Shown here piece by piece: positions 14,302-48,690 of a stretch of 64,000 bases of DNA (the first letter of the stretch is position 1; each line of letters starts with the position of its first letter). The notes under the pieces are model-generated. The model had not been told where the DNA came from, searched no databases, and saw only the letters and a program-made list of their open reading frames with translations. Origin of the DNA: Pontimicrobium sp. SW4 (GTDB lineage: Bacteria > Bacteroidota > Bacteroidia > Flavobacteriales > Flavobacteriaceae); contig NZ_CP157199.1 in the NCBI RefSeq assembly GCF_039954625.1, positions 1,364,001 through 1,428,000 on the forward strand, in the 5' to 3' direction. Both the position numbers and the translations under genes were made by a program.

Positions 14302-14434
14302 TGACATAATATAAATTATAGTACATTTTGTAATATTGGTTTATCGAGTGGATGAAGCAAGATTATAAGAATGATGGCGCGCTGGCGATTAACGTGCGTA
14401 TTCTATGTAGCTATAATGATACTATGTAAAATAG
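14302..14434. repeat. Degenerate L/R intergenic repeat, left edge of the module array
   Basis: Contains a weak left motif (TGACATAATATAAATTATAG at about 14302-14321) and a clear right motif (TAGCTATAAT at 14408-14417, then TATGTAA at 14423-14429). The stretch between them (GGATGAAGCAAGATT... GCGCGCTGGC) resembles the corresponding stretch in the copy at 44153-44372. No coding frame is supported here. Confidence 0.7.
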
Positions 14435-14520
14435 AGCCTCTCGTATAAATTCAATATTCTGAACTATTGTATAGAAATTTTCAAATAAGAAATTCTCGTA
14501 AATTTAATATTTGCAGAAAA

Positions 14521-15105
14521 TGTATCTATAATTTGCCGTTATGTAAAATAGCCGCTACCAAGCGCTCGATTGTTTTATAAAATCAAATTGCTCTGGCAAT
14601 TTATTTTACACACAATTATCCAACGCTTGCCAACGCCAAAATAAAAGCTAACCTTTTTGCTGTTATTGAAATTTTAGCGTATTTGAATAATTGTGCATCA
14701 TATTTTTTTCTACGCGATTCTCGTAAGCTTGCCATAAGAGCTTAAATTTTAAGAAAAATAAAATTTCAAGCACTTATTCTATTCTCGTTATTATTTGAAC
14801 ATTTTTAATTGGAACTATTAATATTATGTAAAATAGAAATTGAAGATTTGAACTACTTAAGTTTTGATAATATCTTTTTTTCTTGGATAAAAAAAGAAAC
14901 AAAAAATCATGACTGCATATAATTTTGGAAACAATTACGGTTCGTTACGCTATATTTTAGGAAACATTGTAACTAACCAAGATTTCTGTAGAAAACGCTT
15001 TAAAGAGTTAAAAAACCAATAATAACAGTAACTAACTCCCTAAAATATTACGCTCCTCTCTCCTATTGTTTTAGCCAAAATTCTATGAGGTCGAGCACAA
15101 AACCG
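14521..15105 (+). repeat. Long direct repeat, copy 1, left of the restriction operon
   Basis: The first 121 bases (14521-14641) match 23162-23282 with only two differences by hand alignment. The rest is similar in blocks: the TTCTCGT...AAATTTTAA block, the TTTTGGAAACAATTA block, and the CCTATTGTTTTAGCCAAA...TATGAGGTCGA block. It includes a perfect AAATTGC/GCAATTT hairpin (14585-14602) and a wider TGTAAAATA/TATTTTACA pair (14542-14550 and 14603-14611). Together with the degenerate copy before it and about 30 bases after it, it accounts for the gene-free stretch 14285-15132. Confidence 0.85.
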
Positions 15106-15132
15106 AATTGCTAAAGTATAGTCTAATAATCT

Positions 15133-17772
15133 TTACATTCCACTAATCAATTCCTTTGCTTTGTCCAACGTAAATGCTCCTTTAACTTCTTTCTTGTCAA
15201 AAACCATAAAATAAGAAAAGTCGTGTCCAGATTGTTTTTCCCATTCGTTTCCAAGTCTGCACTTTCCTTCGCTGTCAGAACCATCCAAATGGTCTCCTTT
15301 CGTTTCTATTAAAATTGTTTTTCCAGATTTAGTCCTCAAAATAAAGTCAGGATAATGATTGGCTTTAAATCCGTTGATGTAAAATCCTTTTCCTCTTTCT
15401 AAATTTCTATGCCAAAACACAATGTTTGAAGAAGTTCCTATTTCCATTATAACTTTCTCCTCAAAGTTGTTCATTGTTCCTTCTTTTTCATACAATGAGT
15501 TTCCGATTGAAGAACCAACTTTTCCAGGAACTATTTCCTTTCCTAATTTCCAGTTTTCTTTAGCTGTTATGCGTTTCGATTTAATTAAATCCATAAATCG
15601 AGTTTCTGCATAACTGTCAGCAAGTTGTCTGATTTTAGCTTTAATTTTGTCTGTATAACTCCATTTTCTAACCAAAATATCACGCATTTGTTCTGCGTTC
15701 ATTCCTTTTAGGATTCTTCCAACATATACTTTTATTTCTTGGTCTGGAATTGGGTACATATTCCCAATAATTTGCATTATTTGATGCGTAATATCACTTA
15801 TTTGAGCATCTTTTGGTTTTGCCAAAATATATTCTGCAATTGGGTCTTTTATTTGACTTTCCTCAATCTTCACCCAATCTGGTGTATAATTGCCTTTGAC
15901 AGTTTCTGTTAAATCTACTTTGTATAAATCAGATGAAATTTGGTCAAAGTCGATTTTAATATCTTCATCAGAAAGTTTAAAATCTTTTAATAACGATTCT
16001 CTGTTTAGTAATTCTTCATCTGTGCCAAAAATGTCACTTGCTGTAACTTTTAAAAAGAATTGAGGAAAATTTATCTGTTCAATAAATTTTTTGTTCGCTT
16101 CTTTTACTCGATAGCGTTTTACTTTATCTCCCATTTCTCGAAAAATATTTTCGTCAACAGGTTGTTTTTCCTGTTCCCTAATTTGTTGTTCTAATTCATC
16201 ATTTTCTTCTTTAGAAATTGATTCAATTTCTTGATTGAAAGGATTGTTTTTTATTTCTTCCTCACTGGCATTTAGGTCAAAAGAAATTCTTCCTTTGTCA
16301 ATCGTTTCTTCTTTTTCTTCTACATGCTGTTCTGGAAATAGGAAAGATTCAACAGGATTTACAACTTGTTCTTCTTTTTCCTCTTCGGTCATTTTATCTG
16401 CAACTCTGTGTTCATTACCACTAAAACCAGATGCTTTTAAACCTTCAACAATGCTTTGTAAAGTTTCGTTGAATTTTGCAGAAGCAGTTAAAACGTAAGA
16501 AAGGTTTAATTGAAATGCTTTGTGTTTTTGAACATAAGGTTGACGTAAAACTCTACCCAAAATTTGTTCAACATCTACTGCACTTGATTTGTCAGCCAAG
16601 GAAGCTAAAATGTATGCAAAAGGACAATCCCAACCTTCTTTTAAAGCGTTGATCGTAATTATATATCTAACTTCACATTCTTTACTCTGTAAATCTGGAA
16701 TTCCTTTAAGCTCGTCAATGTTAGCAGTTTTTATTTTGATTTGATTTTCTGGAATACCTAATCCTAATAATTGTTCTTTTAATTTTTCAAAAGTTGTGTT
16801 GTCATCTTTAGTTTTTGGTTGAGCTTGAAACAGAACAATTGGTCTAATATATTTTCCACCATCAGCTTCTTCTTTCTTTGCAAGAATTTCCAGTTTCCGT
16901 TGTAAATGCAAAGCATTGTTTATGACTTCTGTTTTATCATGATTATTGTAAACAATAACAGGAAGTTTAACCATATGTTCCTTTTTTAATTCTATTGCTG
17001 GAACAAGACTTACAATGTTGCTATTGTCTTTTGGTGTTGCTGTTAAATCTAAAATAAAAGATGGATTCAAATTTTTTAACATATCTACACTCAAATCACT
17101 TTCTGCGTTGTGGCTTTCATCAACTACCAAAACAGGATGTAAACTTCTAATTACATTGATTAAAGCTGTGTCGTCAACACCTTCCAAAAGGTGTTTTCTA
17201 TTTGCATATTGAGGTACAAATGATGCTAATTGTCCGTTTTCTTGATATACTTTTCTGTCTTCTTTGTTTTTTGCTCTTAAACTCGCAAAACTCAAAACAA
17301 AAATGCTCAATTGTTCTTTTACAATTGTTGGATTGAAATTTGAACCTTGCTCTAAATCTGATTTTTCATAAATCTCGACTTTGTGATTAAAAAGTGCATT
17401 TAGCTTTTGACGATATGGATGCTCTGGATTAGATAACGCATTTACAGTTTGTTGTAATAAATTACTCCAAGGCACTAACCAAATGACTGCTTTAGTTTTG
17501 CTAGTGTCGTAAGCTGAAAAAATTGAATGTAAAGCATTGACAGCAATAAAGGTTTTTCCTCCAGCGGTTGGTACTTTTATACAAACGTGAGCTGATTTAG
17601 GAATGTTGTTTTTGTATGGTTGCATACCTGTATTATCCAAAGGATTGTATGGTCCAATTTTATCTTCCCAATACTGATTAAATGCAGTAGCGACATTTTT
17701 ATGTTCTTGAACATATTCTAAATACTCTTCAAGATTTTCTATTACTTTTTGTTGATAGCTCTTTAGTTCCAT
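15133..17772 (-). CDS. Type III restriction endonuclease, Res subunit
   Basis: An 879-residue helicase-nuclease. Superfamily 2 motifs: motif I PTAGGKT (residues 68-74), motif II DESH (218-221), DLTATP (about 242-247) and a late QILGRVLRQP (motif VI). The C-terminus carries a PD-(D/E)xK nuclease core with YPDF (PD at 808-809) and ETK (823-825). It cuts DNA after ATP-dependent translocation when two unmethylated sites are in inverted orientation, and needs the Mod subunit. The gene starts three bases after the mod stop and is the last gene of the five-gene operon. Length and motifs appear intact, so it should be active. Confidence 0.92.
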   Translation of the reverse strand: MELKSYQQKVIENLEEYLEYVQEHKNVATAFNQYWEDKIGPYNPLDNTGMQPYKNNIPKSAHVCIKVPTAGGKTFIAVNALHSIFSAYDTSKTKAVIWLVPWSNLLQQTVNALSNPEHPYRQKLNALFNHKVEIYEKSDLEQGSNFNPTIVKEQLSIFVLSFASLRAKNKEDRKVYQENGQLASFVPQYANRKHLLEGVDDTALINVIRSLHPVLVVDESHNAESDLSVDMLKNLNPSFILDLTATPKDNSNIVSLVPAIELKKEHMVKLPVIVYNNHDKTEVINNALHLQRKLEILAKKEEADGGKYIRPIVLFQAQPKTKDDNTTFEKLKEQLLGLGIPENQIKIKTANIDELKGIPDLQSKECEVRYIITINALKEGWDCPFAYILASLADKSSAVDVEQILGRVLRQPYVQKHKAFQLNLSYVLTASAKFNETLQSIVEGLKASGFSGNEHRVADKMTEEEKEEQVVNPVESFLFPEQHVEEKEETIDKGRISFDLNASEEEIKNNPFNQEIESISKEENDELEQQIREQEKQPVDENIFREMGDKVKRYRVKEANKKFIEQINFPQFFLKVTASDIFGTDEELLNRESLLKDFKLSDEDIKIDFDQISSDLYKVDLTETVKGNYTPDWVKIEESQIKDPIAEYILAKPKDAQISDITHQIMQIIGNMYPIPDQEIKVYVGRILKGMNAEQMRDILVRKWSYTDKIKAKIRQLADSYAETRFMDLIKSKRITAKENWKLGKEIVPGKVGSSIGNSLYEKEGTMNNFEEKVIMEIGTSSNIVFWHRNLERGKGFYINGFKANHYPDFILRTKSGKTILIETKGDHLDGSDSEGKCRLGNEWEKQSGHDFSYFMVFDKKEVKGAFTLDKAKELISGM

Positions 17773-17775
17773 AAT

Positions 17776-19530
17776 TTAAAATCTTGTAATGTCTCTCGGT
17801 ATTTTTTTGAAAATAATGTTGTTTTTTGCCATAAATTCTTTAGGTAATAAGCAATTGTCTGCATATATAACATATTGCTCTCCTTTGAATTTTATGAGTT
17901 CTAAAGCATCAAAATCTAATGTTGTTAATTGGTCTTTTTCGTAAATGAAATAGTAAATCGATTCTTCCTTTTTGCCTAAAAAGTAATTAGCTTCTTTTTG
18001 CTCTACAAAAGGTGTTCTGGTTTCTGAAAACCAAATGTATTCTCGTATTTTTTCTACTTCAACCTGTTCGTTCAAGTTTTGACTATCATCAAAAAGCGGT
18101 AATCCTAATTCGTAAAAATCAAATTTTCCATTATCATTTCCTGTTATTTGTTCACTCTTGTTATAACCATCAATTACTCTTTTAACTCTTTCTGCCGTAA
18201 TTTTATTCGCATATTCCTCTAATTCAATTAGAATATATTGTCTTTTACCATTATCCTCAATATTTAAATCAATAACTGAATGTGCAGTTGTACCAGAACC
18301 AGCAAATGAATCTAAAATGATATCATTACTGCTTGTTGACATATAAAGCAAGTCTCGAATTAATCGTTTAGGTTTTTTTGCATTATCAAATTTTGTATTC
18401 GCTTCTTTAGCCACGTTGCCCATATCCTTATAATATCCAGACCACCAATCACCTCTAATTGTAGTTAAACCATATGTGGTGTTGAAATCATTGGCATTAT
18501 TCACTTTTTCACCTAAAATTAATCTTTGGCGAATATTATCGTTAGAGTTTTTTGTTAACAAATATGACCTTGAGCTTTTATGTATTTTTTTTACGATTCC
18601 TTGTTCAAGTTCTAAATTTTCAAGACCAGATAAACTACTTACTTTATCGTCAGCTACTATAAATTCAGCATTCTTATGTACAAATTCTCTAAATTCTTCG
18701 GATACTGAATAGGCTTTTGCAATATTTTTATTTGATAGAGTGTATTTTCCTTTTTTCTCATTCGCAAGCTTTAAGTTTAGGAGATGTTGTAAAACATCCT
18801 TTTCATTTTCAATTATATGTTTTGATAATGTAATTTCTTTGAATGTATCATCATTTATTTGTTCTAAAAAGAGACTGTAATGAGTATCATAATCTTGCTT
18901 ATTATAAAGAATATTTTTTGCAATTGCTTTGTTTCCATTTTTCCTATACACTAAAATATATTCGCCATTTTTTACAATGTTTCCTTGTTTGGCAAACTTT
19001 ACTTTCTGGCCTTGAACAGAACTCATTTCTACGTGTAAAGTTGTGATGAAACTTTTTCGTCCAAAAATTTCATCCATGATGATTTTTAAATTTGCTTGTT
19101 CATTATCATCGATTGAAATAAAAATTATTCCTTCTGTTGATAATAGCTTATTCAGAAGCATTAATCTTGGATACATCATACACAACCATTTGTCGTGTCT
19201 TGTTAAATCGTCTCCTTCTTGACCAACTGTTTCACCCAACCATTTTTTAATTTTTGGATGATTAACATTGTCATTATATTGCCAGCCTTCATTTCCAGTA
19301 TTATATGGTGGGTCAATGTAAATAGCATTTACTCTTCCTTCGTATTCAGGTAATAAACTTTTAAGTGCTTCAAGGTTGTCTCCGTGTATTATTTTATTTC
19401 CGCTTTGAGTTGGTTCAGTTTGTTCTCCTTTTTTAGCGGTAAAACCGTATTTGTGTTCCAAAACTCTGTAAGGCACATCTTGGTGATGGCTTGTAACTTT
19501 GTCTTTTCCTATCCAATTGAGTGTTGGCAT
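17776..19530 (-). CDS. Type III DNA-methyltransferase, Mod subunit (N6-adenine, beta class)
   Basis: A 584-residue protein. Motif IV DPPY is at residues 73-76 and motif I FAGSGTT at 409-415, an order typical of beta-class N6-adenine methyltransferases including type III Mod. The variable middle region (about 170-350) is the expected target-recognition part, and it is larger than the core. ENGYILVYRK-like and GTTAHSVIDLN segments are also present. No simple-sequence repeat tract that would make it phase-variable was seen inside the gene. It directs both modification and target recognition for the Res subunit. It lies three bases from its neighbours on each side. Confidence 0.92.
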   Translation of the reverse strand: MPTLNWIGKDKVTSHHQDVPYRVLEHKYGFTAKKGEQTEPTQSGNKIIHGDNLEALKSLLPEYEGRVNAIYIDPPYNTGNEGWQYNDNVNHPKIKKWLGETVGQEGDDLTRHDKWLCMMYPRLMLLNKLLSTEGIIFISIDDNEQANLKIIMDEIFGRKSFITTLHVEMSSVQGQKVKFAKQGNIVKNGEYILVYRKNGNKAIAKNILYNKQDYDTHYSLFLEQINDDTFKEITLSKHIIENEKDVLQHLLNLKLANEKKGKYTLSNKNIAKAYSVSEEFREFVHKNAEFIVADDKVSSLSGLENLELEQGIVKKIHKSSRSYLLTKNSNDNIRQRLILGEKVNNANDFNTTYGLTTIRGDWWSGYYKDMGNVAKEANTKFDNAKKPKRLIRDLLYMSTSSNDIILDSFAGSGTTAHSVIDLNIEDNGKRQYILIELEEYANKITAERVKRVIDGYNKSEQITGNDNGKFDFYELGLPLFDDSQNLNEQVEVEKIREYIWFSETRTPFVEQKEANYFLGKKEESIYYFIYEKDQLTTLDFDALELIKFKGEQYVIYADNCLLPKEFMAKNNIIFKKIPRDITRF

Positions 19531-19533
19531 ATT

Positions 19534-20448
19534 TTATTCGAATTTTATATGTTCACCAATATGGCCAACAAGAATTTTATGATTACTTATATTTTCAAAT
19601 CCTTCGTGAAAATAAATGCGATGTTGATAATATGTGTTATCTCCATTTACATCACTTGAAGATAGCTTCATATGAGGTTCGCAACACACGGGTTGCATTA
19701 TTTTCTCATCATTTCTAAAATCATATGTAAAGTAAGGTTTTCTTTCAGCATGACCTTCTAAAGTTGCTGTTTCATCAAGATTACAATTCCCACTAAAATG
19801 ATCAAGAACTTGAGTTCTGTGACGAATCCCATCTTCAGATTCTCTAAATTTATCATTTAATGCTGTTAAGTGATAAACTATCTTCTTTGGAAAATTATCT
19901 AAAATAGCTCCAATTGTATTTCTGTTATTCTCATGAAACACTACATTTGGAAAATACTTCTCACATTCATCCAAGAAAAAATTTTCATCCTTTGGGTATA
20001 AACCTAAATAATGTCTTCTAAATTGAAACCAGCCATTTAAATTATAAACAACTTGATATTCTGGTTCGACACTATCAACTGTATTAAAACCAATTAACCC
20101 ATGACATTTATTTTCATCATGTTCAGGAAGTAAAACTTCTATAACTTCTTCAGAAGTACAAGTAGTTTCTTTTGATTCAATGATTATTTTTTTAATAGCT
20201 AAACGAACATCTCTATCAAGATTTTTATTCGCTATTTCTTCATTGAACATTAAATCTAAAAGAGGGATATCTTCTATAAAATTAACATTGTATATATCTG
20301 GGTGCACAAATAATTGATTAGTATCCCTATATCTTTTAATATATACAAAATCTTGAGCTAAAGATTTTACTTTGTTTTCAATTTCCTCTTTGGTAAAATT
20401 GGAATTATGCTCAAATGATTCAGCTATAATGTAAAATTCTGCAACCAT
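19534..20448 (-). CDS. Unknown protein within the defence operon
   Basis: A 304-residue soluble protein that I do not recognise. No signal peptide or membrane segment is visible. The C-terminal third is rich in His and Cys (RHRTQVLDHFSGNC, CCEPHMKL, YYQHRIYFHEG, VGHIGEHIKFE), a pattern that would suit a metal site or nuclease-like centre, but no named motif fits. The gene sits between an AAA ATPase gene (six bases upstream) and mod (three bases downstream), all on the same strand, so it is clearly part of the operon. It could be an accessory or effector protein of the ATPase/DUF262 part; this is inference from position only. Confidence 0.75.
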   Translation of the reverse strand: MVAEFYIIAESFEHNSNFTKEEIENKVKSLAQDFVYIKRYRDTNQLFVHPDIYNVNFIEDIPLLDLMFNEEIANKNLDRDVRLAIKKIIIESKETTCTSEEVIEVLLPEHDENKCHGLIGFNTVDSVEPEYQVVYNLNGWFQFRRHYLGLYPKDENFFLDECEKYFPNVVFHENNRNTIGAILDNFPKKIVYHLTALNDKFRESEDGIRHRTQVLDHFSGNCNLDETATLEGHAERKPYFTYDFRNDEKIMQPVCCEPHMKLSSSDVNGDNTYYQHRIYFHEGFENISNHKILVGHIGEHIKFE

Positions 20449-20454
20449 AGAAAA

Positions 20455-21597
20455 TCATCTTGAGAATTTAAAAATATCTGCTAAATCAATCTCTTGTTGG
20501 TCGAAAAAGCCATTCGGCCAATTAGCAATTTTCCCTTTTTCATTAATCTCAAGTTCTACTGAATTAAAATCTTCACTAAAATAATGCACTTTTAAATCGG
20601 TGTTATTAATTTCAACCTCCTTATTAAGTGCATTAACTCTTAAGCCATTCAAAATATGTTCACTATGAGATTCAATAAAAATTTGAACACCTGAAGAAGC
20701 CACTCTTGCGAAAAATTCTGCTATCTTGGATTGTGCTCTTGGATGTAAGTGAGCTTCAGGGTTTTCAACAATAATAATATCATTAGGTTTTGCAATTAAA
20801 CCCGTCACAATTAGTGGTAAAATGTAACTATATCCAAAGCCAACATTTATTGGTTTATATTCATGACTATCACTTTTATTATTTAAAAGCATGTATAAAA
20901 CACTACTATCTTTCTCTTTTCCTTTAATATTAATTTTAGCTCCTTCAAGAATATAATTTATCCATTCAGCAGTTTGTTGTATCAGTGATGCTGCGTCTTT
21001 ACCTAAATATAAATTTGGCCTTACAGGTCCAAACTGAATAGAATTAGCAAGAATATTAATACAATGTTCTCCTCTAGGACCAACATGTGGAAAATCTGGA
21101 AGGTTACTTTTTTCAACATATTTAACTGGTCCTAACCTATCAGCACTTACATAATGGATTTTCTTTATTTTATTTGAAAAAAGATTTAACTCACTCGTGT
21201 AGTCGACTGAATCATTTTTTTGTGTTTGAGCAGTTGGTCCAATTTCAACTTTACCCAAGTTGCCAATTAATGGTTTATCTAAATTTTCATTAAATGCCAA
21301 TTGTATGTTTTCTAAAAAAGGGGTATCATAAAATATTTTGAAATAAACACTTTCTCCTTTTGGTGTATCTCTATTTTTTATATCATCAAAATTTCCTAAA
21401 CTAACCAGAGAGCCATTAATTATTAATTCATCAAATTTAAAATCTTCACGTGTAGATTGTGATAAAACTAATAAAGCTTGAAGCACAGAGGATTTCCCCC
21501 TTCCATTAATTCCAGTTAATAAATTTAATTTACTAAAGTTAAATTTTGTTGGTTCTTTAAAGCATTTAAAGTTTCTTAATTCAAGAGCAGTAATCAT
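20455..21597 (-). CDS. AAA ATPase (AAA_15/AAA_21, DUF3696-like)
   Basis: A 380-residue ABC-type ATPase of the SMC/RecF-like group. It starts with ALELRNFKCF, then Walker A GINGRGKSS (from residue 29), Walker B IIIVENPEAHLHP (about 274-286) and the His-switch segment ESHSEHILNGLR (309-320). There is no TOPRIM or nuclease domain of the OLD type at the C-terminus, so any effector must be a partner. Such ATPases often act as sensors in phage defence. It overlaps the DUF262 gene by four bases (ATGA), which indicates translational coupling and a joint function. Confidence 0.88.
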   Translation of the reverse strand: MITALELRNFKCFKEPTKFNFSKLNLLTGINGRGKSSVLQALLVLSQSTREDFKFDELIINGSLVSLGNFDDIKNRDTPKGESVYFKIFYDTPFLENIQLAFNENLDKPLIGNLGKVEIGPTAQTQKNDSVDYTSELNLFSNKIKKIHYVSADRLGPVKYVEKSNLPDFPHVGPRGEHCINILANSIQFGPVRPNLYLGKDAASLIQQTAEWINYILEGAKINIKGKEKDSSVLYMLLNNKSDSHEYKPINVGFGYSYILPLIVTGLIAKPNDIIIVENPEAHLHPRAQSKIAEFFARVASSGVQIFIESHSEHILNGLRVNALNKEVEINNTDLKVHYFSEDFNSVELEINEKGKIANWPNGFFDQQEIDLADIFKFSR

Positions 21598-22700
21598 TGT
21601 GTGTTTTGGCTTAAGATATTGTGAGCAATTCTAAATCTATCTATTACTTTAGCTTTATTTCCTGTTGATTTTGTGACTGCTTGAAAATATTCATAATCTT
21701 TTATTAACAGTGAATAATTATTCTTAATTCGTTTCTTATTTCTTTTGAGAAAGTCATCATTTTGAGTAGATAAATAATTACAAACTGACTCCAAAATTGC
21801 TGTATTGATAGTTCCTCGTGTATATTCTGTAGGTATTCTGAAATTTTTATTATCCCAAATATCAAATGACCATTTCATAACCCTTTCAAAATCATTTTCA
21901 ATTTCATTAATTTGTATATCCTGCATGTGATTTATTCTTTTCATTGCATTTTCAACAAATTCACTCATGTCTCCTGTATACTCATTTTCATAATCGAACC
22001 ATCTGAATGCAATATATCTTAAAGCAACTTCTCTGTCTTTCATTCTTTTATCACTTACTCCCCACCAAATAGCCTTTTTATAATATTCTTCTTCAGAAAG
22101 TCTTTTTAATAATTTAGTAGCTTTACCAATATAAATACAGTTTCTTACCTCTTGCCTATTTAATTGTGTCCCACCAGTATTAATACGATTAAACAGGTCA
22201 TAAATTACAACCATTGGAGTTGATGGTTTTAAAATAAAAACTGTTAGTTTTTTATCTTCAAATTTATATTGTAATGATTCTGGTAAGTCTTTAAATTTAT
22301 ATCCATTGTATTTAGGAATTGCTTCAATTCCTTTTAATGCAAATTCACCATTATAAAATTGACGTAATGCAGTAGACCTTTGTAATCCATCAATTACAAT
22401 ATAAGTCGACTCTTTTGTTTCATTTAGATATATAGGTGGTAATGGAAAATTTAAAATAATAGATTCTATAAATTTACTTTTTTGAGTTAAATTCCAAACT
22501 TGATTTCTTTGAAAATCGGGTTGAATAGTAATTTTACCTTTCTCAAGTTGTCTTAAATATTCGAAAATTGAAAAAGGGTCTTCTCCTATTTCAATATTTT
22601 CGTAAGCTGGGTCATAAGGATAAAGGCCTCCTGTTTTTCCATCAGCAGTCTTTGTATCTTTATCAAGTTCAATAATTTTAGGTTTTTTTAACTCCTCCAT
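21594..22700 (-). CDS. DUF262 domain protein (GmrSD N-terminal-like / ParB-like)
   Basis: A 368-residue protein. The DUF262 hallmarks are PDFQR-x-VW (residues 61-69) and IDGLQR (103-108), the latter being the DGQQR-type nucleotide-binding motif. The C-terminal half is helical, and I see no HNH motif of the DUF1524 type, so it is not a complete GmrSD-type nuclease. DUF262 proteins are frequent in restriction and anti-phage loci. It is the first gene of the five-gene operon and its last codon overlaps the start of the AAA ATPase gene. The flanking long repeat begins about 140 bases upstream. Confidence 0.88.
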   Translation of the reverse strand: MEELKKPKIIELDKDTKTADGKTGGLYPYDPAYENIEIGEDPFSIFEYLRQLEKGKITIQPDFQRNQVWNLTQKSKFIESIILNFPLPPIYLNETKESTYIVIDGLQRSTALRQFYNGEFALKGIEAIPKYNGYKFKDLPESLQYKFEDKKLTVFILKPSTPMVVIYDLFNRINTGGTQLNRQEVRNCIYIGKATKLLKRLSEEEYYKKAIWWGVSDKRMKDREVALRYIAFRWFDYENEYTGDMSEFVENAMKRINHMQDIQINEIENDFERVMKWSFDIWDNKNFRIPTEYTRGTINTAILESVCNYLSTQNDDFLKRNKKRIKNNYSLLIKDYEYFQAVTKSTGNKAKVIDRFRIAHNILSQNTQ

Positions 22701-22842
22701 ATTTATGCATGTTCACATTTCAAATATACTTTTAATTACGATGATTTGAAAATAATCGGATACGGCATTTTTTCAAAAGAATTCTTGTCATTTTTGTTAG
22801 AATTCCATCAGTATTTTAATTAATATATTTAGTCCTTAATGT

Positions 22843-23607: not shown

Positions 23608-23628
23608 AAAATGTACAGTGTACATTTT
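23608..23628. repeat. Perfect palindrome inside direct repeat copy 2
   Basis: AAAATGTACA and TGTACATTTT are perfect 10-base arms around a single G. It is absent from copy 1. It could be an operator or a hairpin end of a small inserted segment. Confidence 0.6.
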
Positions 23629-23671
23629 TAGCTAAATACGATTTGAAACGTGATTTTAGTAAAGTGTTGTA

Positions 23672-26429: not shown

Positions 26430-26434
26430 AATAC

Positions 26435-39941: not shown

Positions 39942-40017
39942 GTTTTGTTATTTGTGTTTGCAATTTATAATTCCAACCCGCCAGCTAGCTCGTTTACTCT
40001 TTTCTATAAGTTCCGAC

Positions 40018-40938
40018 CTATTTTGGTCTAAGTTTTTCAATAACTTCTGTGCTTACCCAATAGATATCTGCCAACCCAGGCTCAATATTTCTTTCGTCTC
40101 TGCCAAAAAACAAATACTTTCCATCTGGACTGATTCTTGGAGCCTTTTCATTAAGGATAGTGTTTATAGAATTTCCAAGATTTATTGGTTTTGTCCACGT
40201 TTCGTCTTTCTCTTTGAAATAAACATACATATCATTATCCTTTCTTCCATCTTCTTCGTTGTTCCGTTCAGTTACGATCAGGTAATCTTGAGATGGGGAA
40301 ATGAAAGCATGATGACCAAATTCAATGTCAACTTCCCGTGCTTCGGGAAATTCGCCATTTTTATTGGGTGCATGATACATTTTGAATTTTGACAAATTGA
40401 AATAATAAAGGTCACCATTTTTGGCCTGATTAGGAAAAAACACAAGATCGTCGTTCACAGGTGAGTCGAGCAGCATTGCATCACTCCAAGAATCTTCTAA
40501 ACGGTTTACATACCAGATTTTTTCATCTGCAAAAGCAGAGTCCATAGCTGTGAAATAAATCCTTTCACCATCAGGGCTAACAAATGGATGAAATTCTTCC
40601 TTTTTTTTCCCATTAGTAAAACCCACTCTTTTTATGGGAGTCCATTTATCATCTTCGAGTTTTGAGAAATAGATAGATGTTATCTCGGCTTCGTTTTTAG
40701 CTGCAAAATACATTTCAGTCAATTCAGGAGAAAACGAAACCGTGCCTTCAAACCTTCCATCAATTGAAACGATACCAGGTGCAAACAATTGAGGAATTAA
40801 ATCTGGTGGTTTTTGATCAAAATAAAAACTTTCTTCTATTGAAGAGCCATCCTCTTTTGCGCTCGATTTTTCAGTTTTGCAAGCAATTAAAAATAATATC
40901 GATACTAGTACTGAGAATTTAATTATGTGGTTTTTCAT
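40018..40938 (-). CDS. PD40/WD40-like beta-propeller lipoprotein
   Basis: A 306-residue lipoprotein (lipobox LIAC). It contains PD40 (TolB-type) repeats: SFSPELTEMYFAA, FVSPDGERIYFTA, ISPSQDYLIV and ISPDGKYLFFG. Such propellers bind peptides or sugars or act as scaffolds; no catalytic function can be inferred. It lies between the two beta-lactamase-fold genes of module 4 on the same strand, with gaps of about 76 and 44 bases, so the three are probably an operon. Confidence 0.82.
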   Translation of the reverse strand: MKNHIIKFSVLVSILFLIACKTEKSSAKEDGSSIEESFYFDQKPPDLIPQLFAPGIVSIDGRFEGTVSFSPELTEMYFAAKNEAEITSIYFSKLEDDKWTPIKRVGFTNGKKKEEFHPFVSPDGERIYFTAMDSAFADEKIWYVNRLEDSWSDAMLLDSPVNDDLVFFPNQAKNGDLYYFNLSKFKMYHAPNKNGEFPEAREVDIEFGHHAFISPSQDYLIVTERNNEEDGRKDNDMYVYFKEKDETWTKPINLGNSINTILNEKAPRISPDGKYLFFGRDERNIEPGLADIYWVSTEVIEKLRPK

Positions 40939-40982
40939 TTCCTAATTTATTTTAGTTACTACCAACTCACCTATTGGTTATT

Positions 40983-42236
40983 TCATTCAAGATCAAACAG
41001 TCCAGATTTGGAAAGCTGTCGAGAAATGACATGAAGTTGATTGCTTTCCCGATCTGTATTGGCAGTTCCGAAAAATGCAATAACCAAATCTTTCGAAGGT
41101 GAGATATAAAGGCCTTGACCTCCATGTGCTCCTTTGTAAAAATCGCCATCATCGAATACGGCACCCCATTGATAACTGCTATATATCGTTTCTTTAAAAT
41201 TCCGTGACATCGCCCTGAGGTTTATATTTACATTTCGGATTTTAGATAAGTGCGCATCAGAAATTATTGGATTGGCGCTCTTTCTTCCACTAGGTGTAAA
41301 AGCAAGACCAAATCTAGCAAGGTCTCGAAGTGTTGTTGACATGCCATCGGCATATGAAATAGAGGTCCCATTTTTATTGAATCCTAAAAGGGCACTATGT
41401 TCTGAACCTATCTTTCTCCATATTTCCTGTTCTACAAAATCGCGGAAGGTAAGACCACTAATTTTTTCAACTAGTAATGTTAATACCATAGCATCGGCAT
41501 TCGACCATTGGAACTCCGTTCCTGATGGCTTAGCAGACTTTGCTTTAGCTAAATCTTTAATGGGGTCAAAACTTACCTCATAGTTCTCTAATGGGATGCG
41601 ATCAATTCCGGAACTCATAGAAAGTATATCTAGTACTGAAACACCTTCCCAACCAGAATTTTTAAGGGCATCAAAGTAGTAATCTATAGGTTTGCTAGTA
41701 TCGATTAAATGGCGATCCTCCAAAATAGCAATGGATGTACTAACAAAAACTTGGGTTATTACCATATTAATATGCAAATCGGTAGGAAACATTCTCGGAT
41801 AGCCTTCAAAGACGATGTTGCCTTTATGAATTATAATTAACCCATTAACTTCTACTTGCTGTGCATAGTCGTTTAATGATAGTCCACCACCTTTTTTTAA
41901 ATCTGTCGTGGTTATAAAATGTTTCACATCATCTCTTGGCGTTTCTTCAAGGATTTTTGGTGTATTTGACCTAAGTATGCGCGAGTGTTCCTTTATTTCG
42001 GAGAAGTTTAAATAATAATATCGTTCCAGATCACCATATTCGGTCCAATTGCCTCCTTCAAAAATGCGTTTATGGAATCCATAAATCTCTTCTTTTGTAA
42101 ATCCAGAATAATTATACGTTTCATATTTTGGAGGTGCAATGCTTAAGGTATCGGAGTCATTTTTTGGATCGTTTTTACAGGCTAGAAAAAGAAGTATTAA
42201 AAGTAGTAGTCCTGTTATGTTTTTCATTATTTTCAT
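40983..42236 (-). CDS. Beta-lactamase-fold lipoprotein lacking catalytic residues (probable pseudoenzyme)
   Basis: A 417-residue lipoprotein (lipobox LFLAC). The overall pattern is that of S12 serine hydrolases: the DILSMSSGID block, the FREMW-type C-terminal region and an HGGQG third motif (from residue 371). But where SxxK is expected (VxxQ, residues 159-162, VITQVFVST) the nucleophile Ser is Val and the Lys is Gln, and the YxN tyrosine is Trp (WSN, 244-246). I checked these codons in the DNA. The protein should be catalytically dead and act by binding. It is the first gene of the module 4 hydrolase operon and is divergent from the kinase gene across 195 bases. Confidence 0.75.
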   Translation of the reverse strand: MKIMKNITGLLLLILLFLACKNDPKNDSDTLSIAPPKYETYNYSGFTKEEIYGFHKRIFEGGNWTEYGDLERYYYLNFSEIKEHSRILRSNTPKILEETPRDDVKHFITTTDLKKGGGLSLNDYAQQVEVNGLIIIHKGNIVFEGYPRMFPTDLHINMVITQVFVSTSIAILEDRHLIDTSKPIDYYFDALKNSGWEGVSVLDILSMSSGIDRIPLENYEVSFDPIKDLAKAKSAKPSGTEFQWSNADAMVLTLLVEKISGLTFRDFVEQEIWRKIGSEHSALLGFNKNGTSISYADGMSTTLRDLARFGLAFTPSGRKSANPIISDAHLSKIRNVNINLRAMSRNFKETIYSSYQWGAVFDDGDFYKGAHGGQGLYISPSKDLVIAFFGTANTDRESNQLHVISRQLSKSGLFDLE

Positions 42237-42431
42237 AGTTTATAAAAGTTCGACACCATAATTAAATGTTGTATAAAAATATAGCATAATACATGCTTAA
42301 GACCTTAAATAGGACAAACCCAACAAATAAATGATAAAACCATTTCGTCATTGATATAACCCTTTTGTAAGAAATTAAAGAATATTGTTTTTGTAGATAT
42401 TATCTTTATCAGATATTTAATAAAAGAGTTT

Positions 42432-43451
42432 ATGATTAAAAAGACTTTTAAGGATACCATACTCCTTAACATAGGAGCTTTTGTATTGGTGCTCATCCTT
42501 GAACTATTAAGTGGATGGATGAGCATAGATCGATATGATTCACCTTTTTCTTTTTTTTTATGGGCACTTAAATATGCCATTAATATTATGGCAGTTATAT
42601 GGGTAAATCATTTTGTTCTTATTCCTTATTTTTTTGATAAGAAAAGATATTTTATATACGGACTCTTGGTTATTGGGAGTATATTTCTTGTGGCATATTT
42701 AGAAGCTTATGCTAACAACAGTTGGCCTGGTGTTACTAAAACTTTTTTATTTCATTTTTATACTACAGGTACTGGAATGGCTGCCTTTTTTTTAAGAAGA
42801 AATATAATCATCCAAAGAGAAAATGCTGAGAAAGAAAATTTACAAAAGGAGATGGAGCTTACCTATTTAAAGGAGCAGGTGAATCCTCATTTTTTATTTA
42901 ACTCCTTAAATAGTATTTATTCACTTGCCAGACAACAATCGCCAGAAACTCCAGATCTTGTCATGCAACTCTCAGAATTAATGAGATATCAATTAGAGAG
43001 TTCTAAAAAAGATACTGTTTTATTAAAAGAAGAGATTGAGTTTATAGAAAATTATTTGTTACTTGAAGAAAAAAGACTAAGTAAACGTTGTACTATTGAA
43101 TTTTTAATTGGAGGAGATCTGTCGGAGTTAAGAATTGCTCCAATGTTACTCATCCCATTTATTGAAAATGCTGTTAAACATGGCGCTCAAAGCACTAACG
43201 AGCAGAGTACCATTGATATTTCTGTCTCTATAAAAAATTCTGTCCTTCATTTTTATGTAGATAATTCGAAGCCTCCCATGGTCTCTACATCTAAAAGAAA
43301 AGGTCTCGGTCTTGAAAATGTAAAAAGGCGTTTAAACCTTTTATATCCTAATTCTCACGCATTAAAAATTGAGGATACCGAAGAAGGTTATCATGTGAAT
43401 TTATCAATAGATTTTAAAGTTTCAAAATTAAAAAATACAGTTAATGATTAA
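42432..43451 (+). CDS. LytS-type sensor histidine kinase (module 4)
   Basis: A 339-residue kinase. About four hydrophobic segments lie in the first 120 residues. The kinase core has the phospho-accepting His in QVNPHFLFNSLNSIYSL and the ATP-binding segments LIPFIENAVKHGAQ and GLGLENVKRRLNLLYP. Its last eight bases overlap the regulator gene, which indicates translational coupling. The promoter region is shared with the divergent pseudoenzyme gene. Confidence 0.92.
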   Translation: MIKKTFKDTILLNIGAFVLVLILELLSGWMSIDRYDSPFSFFLWALKYAINIMAVIWVNHFVLIPYFFDKKRYFIYGLLVIGSIFLVAYLEAYANNSWPGVTKTFLFHFYTTGTGMAAFFLRRNIIIQRENAEKENLQKEMELTYLKEQVNPHFLFNSLNSIYSLARQQSPETPDLVMQLSELMRYQLESSKKDTVLLKEEIEFIENYLLLEEKRLSKRCTIEFLIGGDLSELRIAPMLLIPFIENAVKHGAQSTNEQSTIDISVSIKNSVLHFYVDNSKPPMVSTSKRKGLGLENVKRRLNLLYPNSHALKIEDTEEGYHVNLSIDFKVSKLKNTVND

Positions 43452-44127
43452 AGTAGGTATTGTAGATGATGAAATATTAGCGCGTAAAGTGCTAGAGGAG
43501 TATTGTTCTAAAATTGACAACTTAGAAATAGTACTAAGTACAGGGAATCCGCTTGAATTTATCAATTTCGCTCAACAAAATAATGTTGATCTCATCTTTC
43601 TAGATATTGAAATGCCCGAACTTAATGGTATGGAAATTTTACGCTCTATGATAAAACCACCTAAGGTTATTTTAACTACAGCTTATTCTGAATATGCATT
43701 GGAAAGTTATAATTACAGTGTTGTAGATTATTTATTAAAACCTATAAAAATTGAGCGCTTTTTAAAAGCCATCAACAAAGTGTCAGCTTCAAAAATAGCA
43801 CAGCCAAAAAAAAATAGTAGCACTGATGAACTTCAAATAAAACATGACGGCATACCTGTGAATATCTCATTTAAGTCCATTCTGTATATTCAAAGTTTTG
43901 GAAATTATTTGAAAATTTTTACAGATTCAAGAATGTACCTTATATCTGAAACACTAATTAATATCACTACATTATTATCTGAAAATTTCCAACGCACACA
44001 TAAATCATACATTGTCAATTTAAATAGAGTTTCAGAAGCAAGCAGAACACATTTGTTAATTGAAAACAAAAAAGTGCCAGTAAGTGCTATGTATAAGGTA
44101 ATTGTATTTGAAAAATTGGAAGCATAA
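43444..44127 (+). CDS. LytTR-family response regulator (module 4)
   Basis: A 227-residue regulator: acidic pair IVDDE, Asp54 in IFLDIEMP, TTAYSEYALE and YLLKPI in the receiver, then a LytTR domain (LYIQSFGNYLKIF, FQRTHKSYIVNLN). It begins inside the end of the kinase gene. The degenerate L/R repeat starts 25 bases after its stop codon. It probably controls the divergent hydrolase operon; no operator can be proven here. Confidence 0.92.
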   Translation: MIKVGIVDDEILARKVLEEYCSKIDNLEIVLSTGNPLEFINFAQQNNVDLIFLDIEMPELNGMEILRSMIKPPKVILTTAYSEYALESYNYSVVDYLLKPIKIERFLKAINKVSASKIAQPKKNSSTDELQIKHDGIPVNISFKSILYIQSFGNYLKIFTDSRMYLISETLINITTLLSENFQRTHKSYIVNLNRVSEASRTHLLIENKKVPVSAMYKVIVFEKLEA

Positions 44128-44152: not shown

Positions 44153-44372
44153 CATTCTACATACCCTTTTTCCCTCCTACACTTCTACTTCACACACAGG
44201 CCATTATAGTATATTTCAACTATTTTATTTATCTTGTGGATAAAGCAATATTTAGGAAAGACAGCGCGCTGGCCAATGTGCATTCATTTCTATATCGCTA
44301 TAATTCCATATTATGTAAATATCCTAGAAACATTCATTTTCTTATTAATAATTAGAGCTTGGTTCATTAAAA
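44153..44372. repeat. Degenerate L/R intergenic repeat junction between modules 4 and 5
   Basis: The left half is shortened: CATTCTACATACCC...CTCCTACACTTCTACTTC is followed directly by CATTATAGTA. The right half is clear (TCGCTATAAT at 44295, six bases, TTATGTAA), with GGTTCATTAAA further on. The stretch between resembles that of 14302-14434. It occupies the 282-base gap before the CPBP gene. Confidence 0.75.
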
Positions 44373-44409
44373 TTTAATTACCCGATTCTCATGGGTTTTG
44401 ATTTTTAAA

Positions 44410-45090
44410 TTATATCAAAGACATCGTATTCATAGCACAATGCGCAATAATAACTGGCCATAGATTACGATCTAACTTCACGTAAGCGATTCCCATAATA
44501 ATTCCGATTAAAGCTACAGAAATTGATCGTTCAGAGATATCATATGAATGTCTAAATCCCCAAATGCAAGCTTGAATTATTATGGCAATTACGGTTTTAA
44601 ATTTTACATTTGAGAATAAGCCCTCAACCCAAGTGATTAGGAATCCGCGTTCTAATAATTCTTCTAAAGCAGATTGTAACCATACAAAAATGATAATCGA
44701 AAAGACATAGCCATAATCGCCATTACTCAAAGAATACCCTTTAATTGTACCTTTAGCAGCCTCACTACTTTCTTTAACTACAGCAAATTGATCTTGTATA
44801 ATATTAAAAATAAGAAACGTTGCTATAACAGTAACAAAAATTATTACCGAACTTAATAGTGCTTTTTTTATGTTTTTGGGACGAGATAAACCTAAAATTT
44901 TCCAGGTTACACCTCGTCTTTTCATCATCCAAGTAGCGACTAATAAAGTAGTTCCTGAATATAAAAAACCTGTTACTAAATAATGTGTATTTGGAATGGA
45001 TGTTTCCCTAATTAAAAACATTATTGCTATGTATGCAACTAAATCAATAAAATAACTTAACCTCAATTCCTTTTTTAGTTCTAACCTCAT
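44410..45090 (-). CDS. CPBP-family intramembrane metalloprotease
   Basis: A 226-residue protein with about six membrane segments. The CPBP (type II CAAX-like) motifs are EExxxR (EELLER, residues 143-148), a His in WGFRH (His181; the usual Phe is Trp) and HxxxN (His217-Asn221). It should cut within the membrane; in other bacteria such proteases process or give immunity to small peptides. It starts one base after the stop of the serine hydrolase gene, so both are in one operon. Confidence 0.88.
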   Translation of the reverse strand: MRLELKKELRLSYFIDLVAYIAIMFLIRETSIPNTHYLVTGFLYSGTTLLVATWMMKRRGVTWKILGLSRPKNIKKALLSSVIIFVTVIATFLIFNIIQDQFAVVKESSEAAKGTIKGYSLSNGDYGYVFSIIIFVWLQSALEELLERGFLITWVEGLFSNVKFKTVIAIIIQACIWGFRHSYDISERSISVALIGIIMGIAYVKLDRNLWPVIIAHCAMNTMSLI

Positions 45091-45091
45091 T

Positions 45092-46525
45092 TTATAAATC
45101 TTTACTTAGTTTTTTCTTAAATCTTTCTAAAGTAGATTGAAAAGAACTTAACAATCTGTGAGAGTGTTTTTTTGCTAACTCAACTGCTTTTTCGTAGTTT
45201 TTAAGTGCTAAATCGTATTGCTCATTTTTTTCATAAGCTTCACCTAAACTGTCATACATATTAGCCTCATTAGGAAATAAATGTGCATTTAGCTTAAATA
45301 GTTTAATTGCAAATTCTATATCATTTTCTTTAATAAATTCGTATGCAATACTATTCAGTCTTTGTGGGTGTTTTAACGAATAGTTATTTTTTGTAATGTA
45401 CTCGGTAATATCTTCAAATTGTCTAAAAGCTTTTATCTTGTTTTTATTTTTATATATAAAAAAGCGTAATCTTTCTTTGGGTAATTGATATGCTTTATTA
45501 TATAAAATATATTCAATATAATGCGCTATGTTTTTGGCTATCATATCGTAATTTGATAGTACAATGATGGTATATTTATCCTTTAAATATCTAGAGAAAT
45601 ACGATGAAAACCCAGGCATTCCTCCGCTATGACCAATAACAAGATTCTCTTGCCTGTTTTCTACCTGAAATGCTAAACCGTAGGTAACTTTTAGTGCTTT
45701 GAACATCTTTTTTTTGGAAGCTTCATTAATTAAGCTAGAACCATAAAGCGCTTGGTCAAATTTTAGCATATCTCCTACTGTAGATAGAATTCCTCCATCT
45801 GGATATGGAGAGCTACTTAGAAAGTAATTATTCTGATATTTACCTGAAATAGATTTCATATATCCTGTTGCTCTATTTTTAACTACTTCATCACCAAATC
45901 TCATTGCTGTGTTTTGCATTTGAGTTGGTTCGAGAATATTTTTAGTTATATATTCAGCATAAGATTGACCCGTAATTTCTTCAATCACTGCACCTAATAA
46001 TACCATTCCTGAATTTGAATATGCAAATCGTTTACCAGGGATTGTAAACTCCATTTTTTGCTCATAAATAACAGGCAATAAATCATTTATGCTTTTGTAT
46101 CCATGTCTGTTTGATCGATAATCTGGATGTCTCATATAACTTCCTACGCCTGATGTATGGGATAGTAAATGAAAAATTGTGATTTTATCTCCTAAAGGAA
46201 AATCTTTCAAATATTTAATAACAGGATCATTGATATTTAGCATCCCTCTTTCATGCAACTGCATTATAGAAACTCCGGTAAACATTTTCCCCATTGATGC
46301 AATGTTAAACTTAGTATCTATGTTGTTTTTTATCCCGTAACTCTTATTTGCATATCCAAAGGCTTTTGCGTATAATATTTTTCCTTCTTTAGCTAGAAGT
46401 ACGGTTCCAGAGAATTGATCTAATGCTATATGTTCTTGCATCATTTCCTCAATCTTTTGATTGATTGTTTGTGCGTATATAGTTGAAGATAAGAAAATAA
46501 TGGTAATAATTAATACTCGAATCAT
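45092..46525 (-). CDS. Secreted beta-lactamase-fold hydrolase with TPR tail (module 5)
   Basis: A 477-residue secreted protein (signal peptide ending IYAQ). S12-type catalytic motifs are intact: SMGK (77-80), YSN (169-171) and HSGG. The last 100 residues hold at least one clear tetratricopeptide repeat (ANMYDSLGEAYEKNEQYDLALKNYEKAVE), which would mediate protein-protein contact. Substrate unknown. The CPBP protease gene follows after one base. The regulator gene lies about 110 bases upstream on the same strand. Confidence 0.88.
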   Translation of the reverse strand: MIRVLIITIIFLSSTIYAQTINQKIEEMMQEHIALDQFSGTVLLAKEGKILYAKAFGYANKSYGIKNNIDTKFNIASMGKMFTGVSIMQLHERGMLNINDPVIKYLKDFPLGDKITIFHLLSHTSGVGSYMRHPDYRSNRHGYKSINDLLPVIYEQKMEFTIPGKRFAYSNSGMVLLGAVIEEITGQSYAEYITKNILEPTQMQNTAMRFGDEVVKNRATGYMKSISGKYQNNYFLSSSPYPDGGILSTVGDMLKFDQALYGSSLINEASKKKMFKALKVTYGLAFQVENRQENLVIGHSGGMPGFSSYFSRYLKDKYTIIVLSNYDMIAKNIAHYIEYILYNKAYQLPKERLRFFIYKNKNKIKAFRQFEDITEYITKNNYSLKHPQRLNSIAYEFIKENDIEFAIKLFKLNAHLFPNEANMYDSLGEAYEKNEQYDLALKNYEKAVELAKKHSHRLLSSFQSTLERFKKKLSKDL

Positions 46526-46634
46526 TGATGTATATTTTAAAATGAATACATCAAAATTGAATAATCTTACTTATTTTTTAAAATGAAATAGATATCTACA
46601 GAAGATAAATAGACGTTTAAGGGTATTTCATCTA

Positions 46635-47339
46635 TTATTGAAAATCAGATTTGATGAATTTCAAAAAATTATTTTTATATTTTTCTGAAACAGGAATGTA
46701 TTTATCTCCAAAAACAATACGATTGCGCTCAATAGTTGTAATCTTTTTTAGGTTTACCATAAACGAGCGATGTACACGCATAAACTGGCTTTTGGGCAAT
46801 TCTTCTTCTAAAGATTTCATGCTTTTTAAGGTAAGAATAGGTTTTTCTGAATGAACAGTATAAAGCTTTAAATAGTCTTTAAGACCTTCAACATAAATCA
46901 AATCTTTTAAATCAATCTTAATTAATTTATAATCTGATTTGACAAAAATATAATCATCAATTGCCACTTGAGTAGAGCCTTGAAGTATTTGCAGTTTCGC
47001 TTTACTAGCAGCTGTGAGAAATTCGGGATAACTGATTGGTTTTACTAAATAATCAATGGCATTTACTTTATAACTTTCTAGTGCAAATTCTTCAAACGCA
47101 GTCGTAAAAATAATTTTAGCCTTGCTATTTAAAATTAATTTTGAAAACTCCATCCCTGATAAATTTGGCATTTGTATATCTGAAAAAATTAAATCAACAG
47201 ATTCTTTTTCTAATAGTTCTATAGCAGCAATAGCACTATTACATTTAGCTATTAGCTTTAAAAATGGTGTAGCTCTAACATAATCTTCTAACAAGTTAAG
47301 CGCTAAAGGCTCGTCATCAATTAAAATACAAGTTAACAT
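46635..47339 (-). CDS. LytTR-family response regulator (module 5)
   Basis: A 234-residue regulator with acidic pair LIDDE, Asp54 in IFSDIQMP, TTAFEEFALE and YLVKPI, then a LytTR domain (YVEGLKDYLKLY, FMRVHRSFMVNL). Its start overlaps the kinase stop by one base (TAATG). The hydrolase gene lies about 110 bases downstream. Confidence 0.92.
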   Translation of the reverse strand: MLTCILIDDEPLALNLLEDYVRATPFLKLIAKCNSAIAAIELLEKESVDLIFSDIQMPNLSGMEFSKLILNSKAKIIFTTAFEEFALESYKVNAIDYLVKPISYPEFLTAASKAKLQILQGSTQVAIDDYIFVKSDYKLIKIDLKDLIYVEGLKDYLKLYTVHSEKPILTLKSMKSLEEELPKSQFMRVHRSFMVNLKKITTIERNRIVFGDKYIPVSEKYKNNFLKFIKSDFQ

Positions 47340-48352
47340 TATGCTTTATATTTAAGTGTTAGTTGTGCACTATAGGTACTATTTTCTTCTTTAGTAATCA
47401 AATTGAATTTATTTGGATATAAAATATCTAACCGCTTTTTTAAGTTTTCTAACCCAATTCCAGAATCTGTGATTTTTTCTTTTTCTGGAAAGGATGAATT
47501 GATTACTGAATAGTTTATGTGGTCTTTTTCAATTGTCAAATCAATAGTTATAAAACTATCTTTTATTGCATCAATTCCGTGTTTAAAAGCATTTTCTACA
47601 AAAGTAATTAATATCAGTGGCGCTATTTTTATAGGTTGATTCACAATTGGGAAGTTTTTCTCAAGGGTTAGATTAGAAGATACTCGTAATTGCATTAAAT
47701 CTATATAACGCACTAGAAATTCTATTTCTTTAACTAGTGGAACTTTATTATTAGAAGCATCATGCAAAACATAGCGCATCATTTTACTCATAGTATGTAT
47801 GGATTGTTTGGCTTTAACCGGAGATATATCAATCAATGCATATATATTATTCAGTGTATTAAATAGAAAGTGTGGTTGAACTTGATACTTTAAATATTTA
47901 ATTTCTGCGTTTAATTGAGTTTGTTTTATTTGTTGCAGTAATAACTTATTTTTATTTAAATGTGCATTTACTTTCAACGCTACACACATACCAATACTTA
48001 AAATTATGGGTAAAATGACTTGAACCGTGGTCATTGCACCGCTTCTTATTTCGCGTAGTGGCTCTCCATTTAATGATGGATGAAATATAGCATTACCTAC
48101 TATAAAACCTATTAAGATAAATAGAATTACAATAAGAAATACATTTAGTATATAAAATTGAAGCTTTTTATTTTTTAGAAAAAAATGTTCGACTAAAACA
48201 AAATAGTTAACATAAAAAGCTATAAAAATACTTGTTAAAGACAACCAATTTCTATAAATAAGATATTGATCATTTAAAGATGCCAACGGATAAATGAACA
48301 ATATCAACCACAAAATAAAATGCAACCCTATTTTTAGATAATTTAATTTCAT
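47339..48352 (-). CDS. LytS-type sensor histidine kinase (module 5)
   Basis: A 337-residue kinase with about four membrane segments in the first 130 residues. The phospho-accepting His lies in QVQPHFLFNTLNNIYAL, with the ATP-binding segments LITFVENAFKHGID and SGIGLENLKKRLDILYP. It is translationally coupled to the regulator. Its start lies about 165 bases from the last L repeat copy, a slightly larger gap than in the other modules. Confidence 0.92.
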   Translation of the reverse strand: MKLNYLKIGLHFILWLILFIYPLASLNDQYLIYRNWLSLTSIFIAFYVNYFVLVEHFFLKNKKLQFYILNVFLIVILFILIGFIVGNAIFHPSLNGEPLREIRSGAMTTVQVILPIILSIGMCVALKVNAHLNKNKLLLQQIKQTQLNAEIKYLKYQVQPHFLFNTLNNIYALIDISPVKAKQSIHTMSKMMRYVLHDASNNKVPLVKEIEFLVRYIDLMQLRVSSNLTLEKNFPIVNQPIKIAPLILITFVENAFKHGIDAIKDSFITIDLTIEKDHINYSVINSSFPEKEKITDSGIGLENLKKRLDILYPNKFNLITKEENSTYSAQLTLKYKA

Positions 48353-48519
48353 TTTTAATTTAAAAGACTAAAGTAATATAAAGAATGTTTGTGTTATAAT
48401 TTAATAGATGATCTATAATTTATTATGGAAGTTTGATGAGCTTTTATCTACTAATTGGTGTAAAGTAGCATCCCAAAACTATAATTACATAATCACCTTA
48501 CTAATAACAACATAAATGG

Positions 48520-48690
48520 CATTCCACATACATTGCATTATTCTCTTATTGTCGTTTCGTGTAATAAGTGTTCCATTAAGATTGTAAAAAAGCTTTGGAG
48601 AAGAAAACTCTTTAAAGATAAATTAGTAAATGAAACTATTGCTTTTGCCAAAGCAAAGTAACATAATGCTGACCATTATAGTACATTAAC
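48520..48690. repeat. L half of the intergenic repeat at the right edge of module 5
   Basis: Opens CATTCCACATACATT and ends TTACATAA-like (TAACATAATGCTGA, CCATTATAGTACATT). It carries a perfect hairpin TTGCTTT/AAAGCAA (48639-48656), where other L copies have GCTTT/AAAGC at the same place. No right half follows. The rest of the gene-free stretch 48353-48786 shows no other structure. Confidence 0.8.

Follow-up and report, generated by a model that had tools for sequence, protein, structure and literature searches.

Elements that have no integrase of their own and integrate at chromosomal dif (IMEX) are already known, as are phages that reside at dif in the phylum Bacteroidota. The CTX-type IMEX comprise filamentous phages and a satellite that integrate at dif. 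In the phages, two sites separated by 90 nt fold into a structure of about 150 bp on which XerC acts; once integrated, the phage does not leave, since integration abolishes the fold and yields incompatible centres (PMC5357621; PMC4246890). In Bacteroidota, for which dif sites were predicted earlier (PMC3025954), PhiCjT23-like and microvirus-like proviruses lie at dif-like sites (PMC9719478; PMC3091885), and dif motifs have been described on either side of PhiCjT23-like prophages (PMC9719478). Two further comparisons are the pdif modules of Acinetobacter (PMC12907356; PMC7399989) and the gonococcal genetic island together with LME-1 (PMC5357621; PMC9765430).

The locus described here lies in a window (the whole stretch of 64,000 nucleotides of Pontimicrobium sp. 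SW4 DNA that was analysed) and is very probably a stack of cargo-only mobile elements of a family that integrates via host Xer at dif, the best reading of the sequence data being a new IMEX-type family. As in other IMEX, no integrase belonging to the element was recognised within the proteins scanned, and the elements sit at what is probably the chromosomal dif. With the CTX-type elements, the family shares the lack of a recognised recombinase, dif as the target, a dif kept at one edge, tandem arrays, inverted dif-like arms in the folding junction and a centre that would be mismatched after integration; unlike them, it is cargo-only, with no replication or virion gene recognised, has long conserved noncoding ends and is found in Flavobacteriaceae. 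The PhiCjT23-like and microvirus-like proviruses belong to the same phylum and likewise have dif-like flanks and no integrase, but they are phages, whereas no capsid gene was found in the element cargo scanned at Pfam. Gene cassettes bounded by Xer-type sites and served by host recombinases are also what the pdif modules consist of, from which the present family differs in its one chromosomal dif-like site, its long noncoding ends and its uniformly direct orientation. What this family has in common with the gonococcal island and LME-1 is its position at dif and a changed dif sequence on one side; in contrast to the gonococcal island (57 kb, with a secretion system), the units found here are stacked cargo of 3.6-11.2 kb. 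No description of cargo-only, defence-carrying, dif-stacked elements of Flavobacteriaceae was found in searches covering the open-licence papers of PMC.

The array starts with the dif-like site, followed by an R end, cargo and an L end, and again R, cargo and L, repeated (Table 1); in the naming taken over from the first-pass annotation, R is the left end of a unit and L its right end. That annotation had placed six copies of the repeat at the borders of the modules, and sequence comparison and profile search find all of them there, although the L part at 44153 is just a short remnant (77.8% identity over 45 nt to copy 3) that the profile misses. Module 3 has no R end. Elsewhere in this genome (main contig of 3.43 Mb), among matches with E up to 0.1, the repeat occurs as one remnant (C1:351212-351438), and a further 30-nt match lies at C1:1285453 (E 2e-4). 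The remnant (L040:10212-10438), which consists of a lone L end, a hairpin and about 28 nt of R and is located 1.03 Mb from the dif-like site, is the leftover of an off-dif insertion. That the repeats act as regulatory elements, terminators or RNAs was rejected: Rfam gave no match reaching the gathering score in the window and none at E 0.5 in 14290-23800, and relative to the adjacent genes L is upstream in modules 1, 2 and 5 but downstream in modules 3 and 4.

Table 1. Features of the array in window coordinates.
Feature	Position	Strand	Description
Chromosomal dif-like site, array left edge	14300..14325	+	XerD-like arm TTTGACATAA, 6-nt centre TATAAA, XerC-like arm TTATAGTACA
R end, element 1	14326..15110	+	Loop, inverted arm, conserved noncoding block, distal conserved block 15051-15109
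Cargo 1	15133..22700	-	Type III restriction helicase, type III methyltransferase, unknown 304 aa protein, NsnB-like ATPase, NsnA/GmrSD-like protein
L end, element 1	22841..23021	+	Terminates in GTTACATAACGCAGAACATTATAGTACA
Tandem junction	22970..23080	+	Inverted dif-like arms, hairpin with unpaired centre; z -2.9 on +, -2.7 on -
R end, element 2	23045..23783	+	Sequence comparison, profile search
Cargo 2	23801..27520	-	S15 peptidase, LytTR regulator, PF06580 kinase; related set in another genus (L101)
L end, element 2	27595..27849	+	Element 3 R end missing after it
Cargo 3	28279..37464	mixed	PF00144 hydrolase, HTH_18 regulator, M1-type peptidase, ABC ATPase (all -), kinase/LytTR pair (+)
L end, element 3	37487..37727	+	Sequence comparison, profile search
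R end, element 4, shortened	37765..37915	+	
Cargo 4	37956..44127	mixed	Esterase/PF00144 protein, PD40 protein, PF00144 hydrolase (-), kinase/LytTR pair (+)
Decayed junction	44153..44374	+	L remnant and R fragment 44297-44374
Cargo 5	44410..48352	-	Rce1-like protease, PF00144 hydrolase with TPR, LytTR/kinase pair
L end, element 5; array right edge	48518..48694	+	
R ends (profile search)	14408-14702, 23045-23329, 37765-37915, 44297-44374		
L ends (profile search)	22841-23021, 27595-27849, 37487-37727 (two pieces), 48518-48694		

Pfam confirms that the genes nearest to L in modules 2 to 5 encode a PF06580 kinase and a response regulator-LytTR protein. Measured from the ORF ends, these pairs lie 74, 22, 25 and 165 nt from L, values of which the last three agree with those first reported and the first replaces a gap of 87. 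Module 1 has no such pair, so that the arrangement holds in four of the five window modules; the array contains four of the 22 LytTR domains of the genome, and in sister genomes kinase/LytTR pairs adjoin L once in G002 and three times in G003. As a rule for the module, the position of the sensor pair beside L does not extend further: of 22 elements bounded by hand outside the genus, just one (L101) carries relatives (BLASTP) of a window pair, along with one of the module 2 S15 peptidase, at 55-64% protein identity. Because of this single occurrence in 22 elements, the kinase/LytTR pair is regarded as cargo that is common in this genus and is no part of the element. The earlier idea of a device built from LytS/LytTR pairs and hydrolases thus gives way to another one, in which the repeats appear to be the two noncoding termini of a small cargo-only mobile element common to many marine flavobacteria. 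A view close to the earlier one would be a lineage-specific tandem duplication of a sensor-hydrolase locus with the repeats inside the duplicated unit, which could account for the four paralogous kinase/LytTR pairs and for the PF00144 hydrolases of modules 3-5; however, module 1 is a restriction/Nsn set, similar ends enclose unrelated cargo in other genera, and the presence of a related pair in only one of the outside elements already contradicts it, making such a duplication extremely improbable.

The other part of the first interpretation, that the modules are of one kind with swappable cargo, was right and applies far more widely than had been proposed, with the blocks beside the dif-like site varying within both the genus and the family. 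All six compared genomes of the genus (one genome per species) have the repeat in clusters, and the blocks beside the site differ among them. The same locus is occupied by different cargo in these neighbours, a comparison with both flanks visible in G000-G003 and one flank in G004 and G005, and the array is inverted relative to its flanks in G002 and G003. Five genus-level pairs provided no clean pair of empty and filled sites, the comparison being blurred, partly by inversion near the terminus.

The site at the left edge of the array is a 26-nt sequence with one mismatch to the family pattern and is the sole match in this genome; it resembles the dif of E. coli. With up to three mismatches, it was found in 158 of 199 genomes (one genome per genus), exactly once in 154 of the 158, while the reversed pattern used as a control was found in six of 199; at three mismatches the site is absent from 41 of the 199 genomes (22 of the 165 good ones). 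A looser pattern matched this genome four times, versus ten times for its reversed control, and only the array site was mismatch-free. The site is also present in genomes in which the element search found no element, and the profile search detected no R or L end in the 20-kb stretches around it in L127, L130, L132 and L139, from which it follows that the site exists without the element. Over 25 stretches of this genome, the codon-3 GC skew is positive in 12 of 12 stretches left of the array and negative in 13 of 13 right of it, with near-zero stretches at 1.23 Mb (+0.008) and, half a genome away, at 3.09 Mb (-0.001). The array therefore lies at the terminus of this chromosome, a placement that rests on the skew of one genome because the distance to dnaA is uninformative. 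This distance, calculated by hand for 21 genomes of the family (single-contig or near-complete), in some of which the element stood in for the site and lengths were rounded, is roughly 0.05-0.24 of the genome and not the expected 0.5. Locating the terminus in this way thus failed, dnaA seems to be unlinked from the origin in this family, and the skew was used instead; in this genome, dnaA is at G000:C1:1980763. On the basis of its single copy, its presence without the element and the change of skew sign, the 26-nt site is read as dif, the XerC/XerD dimer-resolution site.

The element family occurs in many genera. At least 184 of 397 Flavobacteriaceae genomes, in 136 of 237 genera, have a match; since the scoring took in two candidates per genome, the true number may be higher. 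A wider genome scan yielded at least 118 stretches, and the 80 listed are, by their titles, mostly from Flavobacteriaceae (e.g., Maribacter, Zobellia, Polaribacter and Winogradskyella). One contig with both an L and an R end (L235) is labelled as a Pleomorphochaeta MAG, for which misbinning would be our guess. Among the matches listed and read by eye, the element lies within 25 kb of the dif-like site on the same contig in 40 of 44 genomes, the exceptions being G066 (1.46 Mb away), G157 and G167 (other contigs) and G061, in which the element is beside a site with three mismatches and a better match is found elsewhere. Additional site matches on another contig are present in G041, G013, G054 and G134. 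L and R are on the same strand in all 34 loci with both ends among the 80 listed 8-kb loci, and in all 10 of the 80 with the site in view L has the orientation of the site and lies on its XerC side; in L142, exceptionally, R is opposite to the site. Aligned left edges read CTATTTTACATAA-TATAAA-TTATAGTACAAAT, with variants, and aligned right edges GTTACATAA-CGCAGAACA-TTATAGTACA; the commonest right-end centre (loci not made unique) is CGCAGAACA, versus TATAAA in the dif-like site.

These observations bear on whether a site-specific step is needed at all. The ends could be passive homology arms, RecA recombination shuffling cargo between ends that already occupy a single terminal hotspot. Compared with the window copy, R ends in the compared loci of other genera show 73-98% identity over a length adequate for homologous exchange, and the terminus is itself fluid. 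However, this leaves the colonization of new sites unexplained: elements stand beside the site in many genera with flanks that appear unrelated by eye, they also occur at three weaker dif-like sites (G066, G061 and G339), and their left ends break at the same place of the dif-like core. Homologous exchange as the whole explanation is for these reasons considered unlikely. The three off-dif insertions begin with ACATAA-N6-TTATAG, as expected if the target supplies a half-site. No empty site was found for those of G066, whose genus is represented by one genome, and G339; in the latter, no 26-nt site was found (L114), and the flank, read by eye, is an island beside a tRNA.

Where one element meets the next, TTACATAA is complementary to TTATGTAA and ATTATAG to CTATAAT, and the centre between the paired arms stays unpaired. 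Thirty-three distinct junctions, picked by a pattern that already demands complementary arms, measure 91-195 nt end to end (91-96 nt in 18 of them), and 30 of them fold with z below -2 (mean z -4.7). For the loops alone, the mean z is -3.7 in the 12 long ones and -0.2 in the 21 short ones. The long loops (L106, L111, L131 and L070) contain a nested second inverted repeat with dif-like halves recognizable by eye, possibly a further small element, which short loops do not have. If one strand were the substrate, a bias in folding would be expected, but none is seen, the + strand folding better in 12 of 33 junctions; a strand preference hinted at by three window junctions was gone in this larger set.

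Imperfect hairpins with variable loops between cassettes are also what an integron-like array would present, in which the junctions would be attC-like sites moved by an integron integrase. Such an origin was rejected, as no integron integrase was found near the array: the nearest PF00589 match is 0.29 Mb away, with no tyrosine recombinase in between. Moreover, the cargo is often a multi-gene operon (median element 6.2 kb, n=22) and the attachment site is the single-copy dif-like site, so that an integron must be considered very unlikely. Among 24 cargo proteins of the window and 40 that belong to other loci, Pfam recognised no recombinase catalytic family. Arm-DNA-bind domains are usual in tyrosine recombinases; a 737 aa protein of L080 has one beside a methylase domain. 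Elsewhere in this genome, a tyrosine recombinase gene pair occurs twice, 6 kb apart and with identical scores (G000:C1:701799-703182 and 707789-709172). The genome encodes a XerD above the cut-off and a protein whose best family is XerC, below the cut-off of that family.

The similarity of the junction parts to those of CTX-type phages makes a one-way integration led by XerC the best reading. The array would then consist of five stacked integrated copies of a cargo-only element that uses host chromosome dimer resolution. An incoming copy would bear the junction of two inverted dif-like arms, whose single-stranded hairpin is the putative substrate, and the host XerC/XerD proteins, to which catalysis is assigned by analogy, would recombine this junction with dif at the edge of the XerC arm. 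Integration would keep dif on the left, place the element on its XerC side and leave the right end with a mismatched centre of 9-10 nt (CGCAGAACA vs TATAAA), and because of this mismatch recombination back would be poor. Repeated entry at the same dif would produce a tandem array with the newest copy probably next to dif. In 10 of 12 arrays with at least two R ends, the R end nearest to the dif-like site has a higher profile score than the farthest one, as judged with a profile trained mostly on dif-near copies and with the site out of view in L114 and L077; L077 and L143 are reversed, L105 is a near tie, and of the window copies the second R scores above the first. The better conservation of the R end nearest to the site is consistent with growth at dif.

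Outside the genus, the 22 hand-bounded elements are 3.6-11.2 kb long (median 6.2 kb), and in 19 of them most of the coding is directed toward the dif-like site. Cargo includes Tmn, a CBASS cyclase and SAVED effectors, a PtuA-like ATPase together with type I restriction, an NsnA-like protein and STAND/NACHT proteins. Further cargo comprises Eco57I-like and cytosine methylases, RND efflux, a P-type ATPase, an M43-type protease and an arginine decarboxylase-like protein with a deoxyhypusine synthase-like protein, the last two forming one cargo set in three genera (L079, L106 and L102). In a PADLOC search with 20 proteins, all four from the window matched at 1e-6, and of the 16 from outside nine matched and seven did not. 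Cargo is conserved across genera at the nucleotide level, with identities of 93.9% over 4,110 bp (L106 and L079), 87.2% over 4,473 bp (L102 and L106) and 84.7% over 6,311 bp (L109 and L112, whose R ends are 77.9% identical); as a core-gene baseline for these identities, the EF-G gene of the window gave no useful match in six genomes. Such similarity suggests that the elements have probably been transferred from cell to cell between genera. No phage replication or virion genes were recognised in the cargo scanned at Pfam, nor in the one window cargo protein scanned with PHROGs.

If the reading of stacked, Xer-integrated elements is right, a large part of the family would share a vehicle for cargo whose target is a single, nearly universal site, and each strain would have a readable stack of acquisitions next to its dif. 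Likewise, the source of some marine flavobacterial defence genes would be explained, reading between the ends would be a simple way to hunt for new defence systems, and movement between genera in elements with no recognised replication or transfer genes would become a testable question. One tentative idea, to which we give a rather modest chance, is that the elements are satellites of ssDNA phages. The conserved R ends of 300-800 nt and L ends of about 190 nt would hold replication, packaging and folded attachment signals. A helper, for example a PhiCjT23-like phage, would replicate and package any operon of 4-11 kb between these ends, often an anti-phage one, which would then be stacked at dif, and the array would be an ordered record of acquisitions. 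The repeat ends have no match in 50,697 phage records or in plasmid records (blastn), nor in IMG/VR (exact 22-25-mers); one IMG/VR contig has a dif-like 22-mer, but neither an L nor an R end turned up in 8.6 kb of it. In the sister genome G001, a 7.8-kb segment between two dif-like sites (L069, L070; G001:C20, about 65829-73660) lies beside an element and encodes a PhiCjT23-like capsid protein with 37.7% identity to that of phiCjT23, and PHROG virion or lysis/endolysin matches were obtained for four of its nine ORFs scanned. The presence of this PhiCjT23-like prophage beside the element makes a satellite life plausible.
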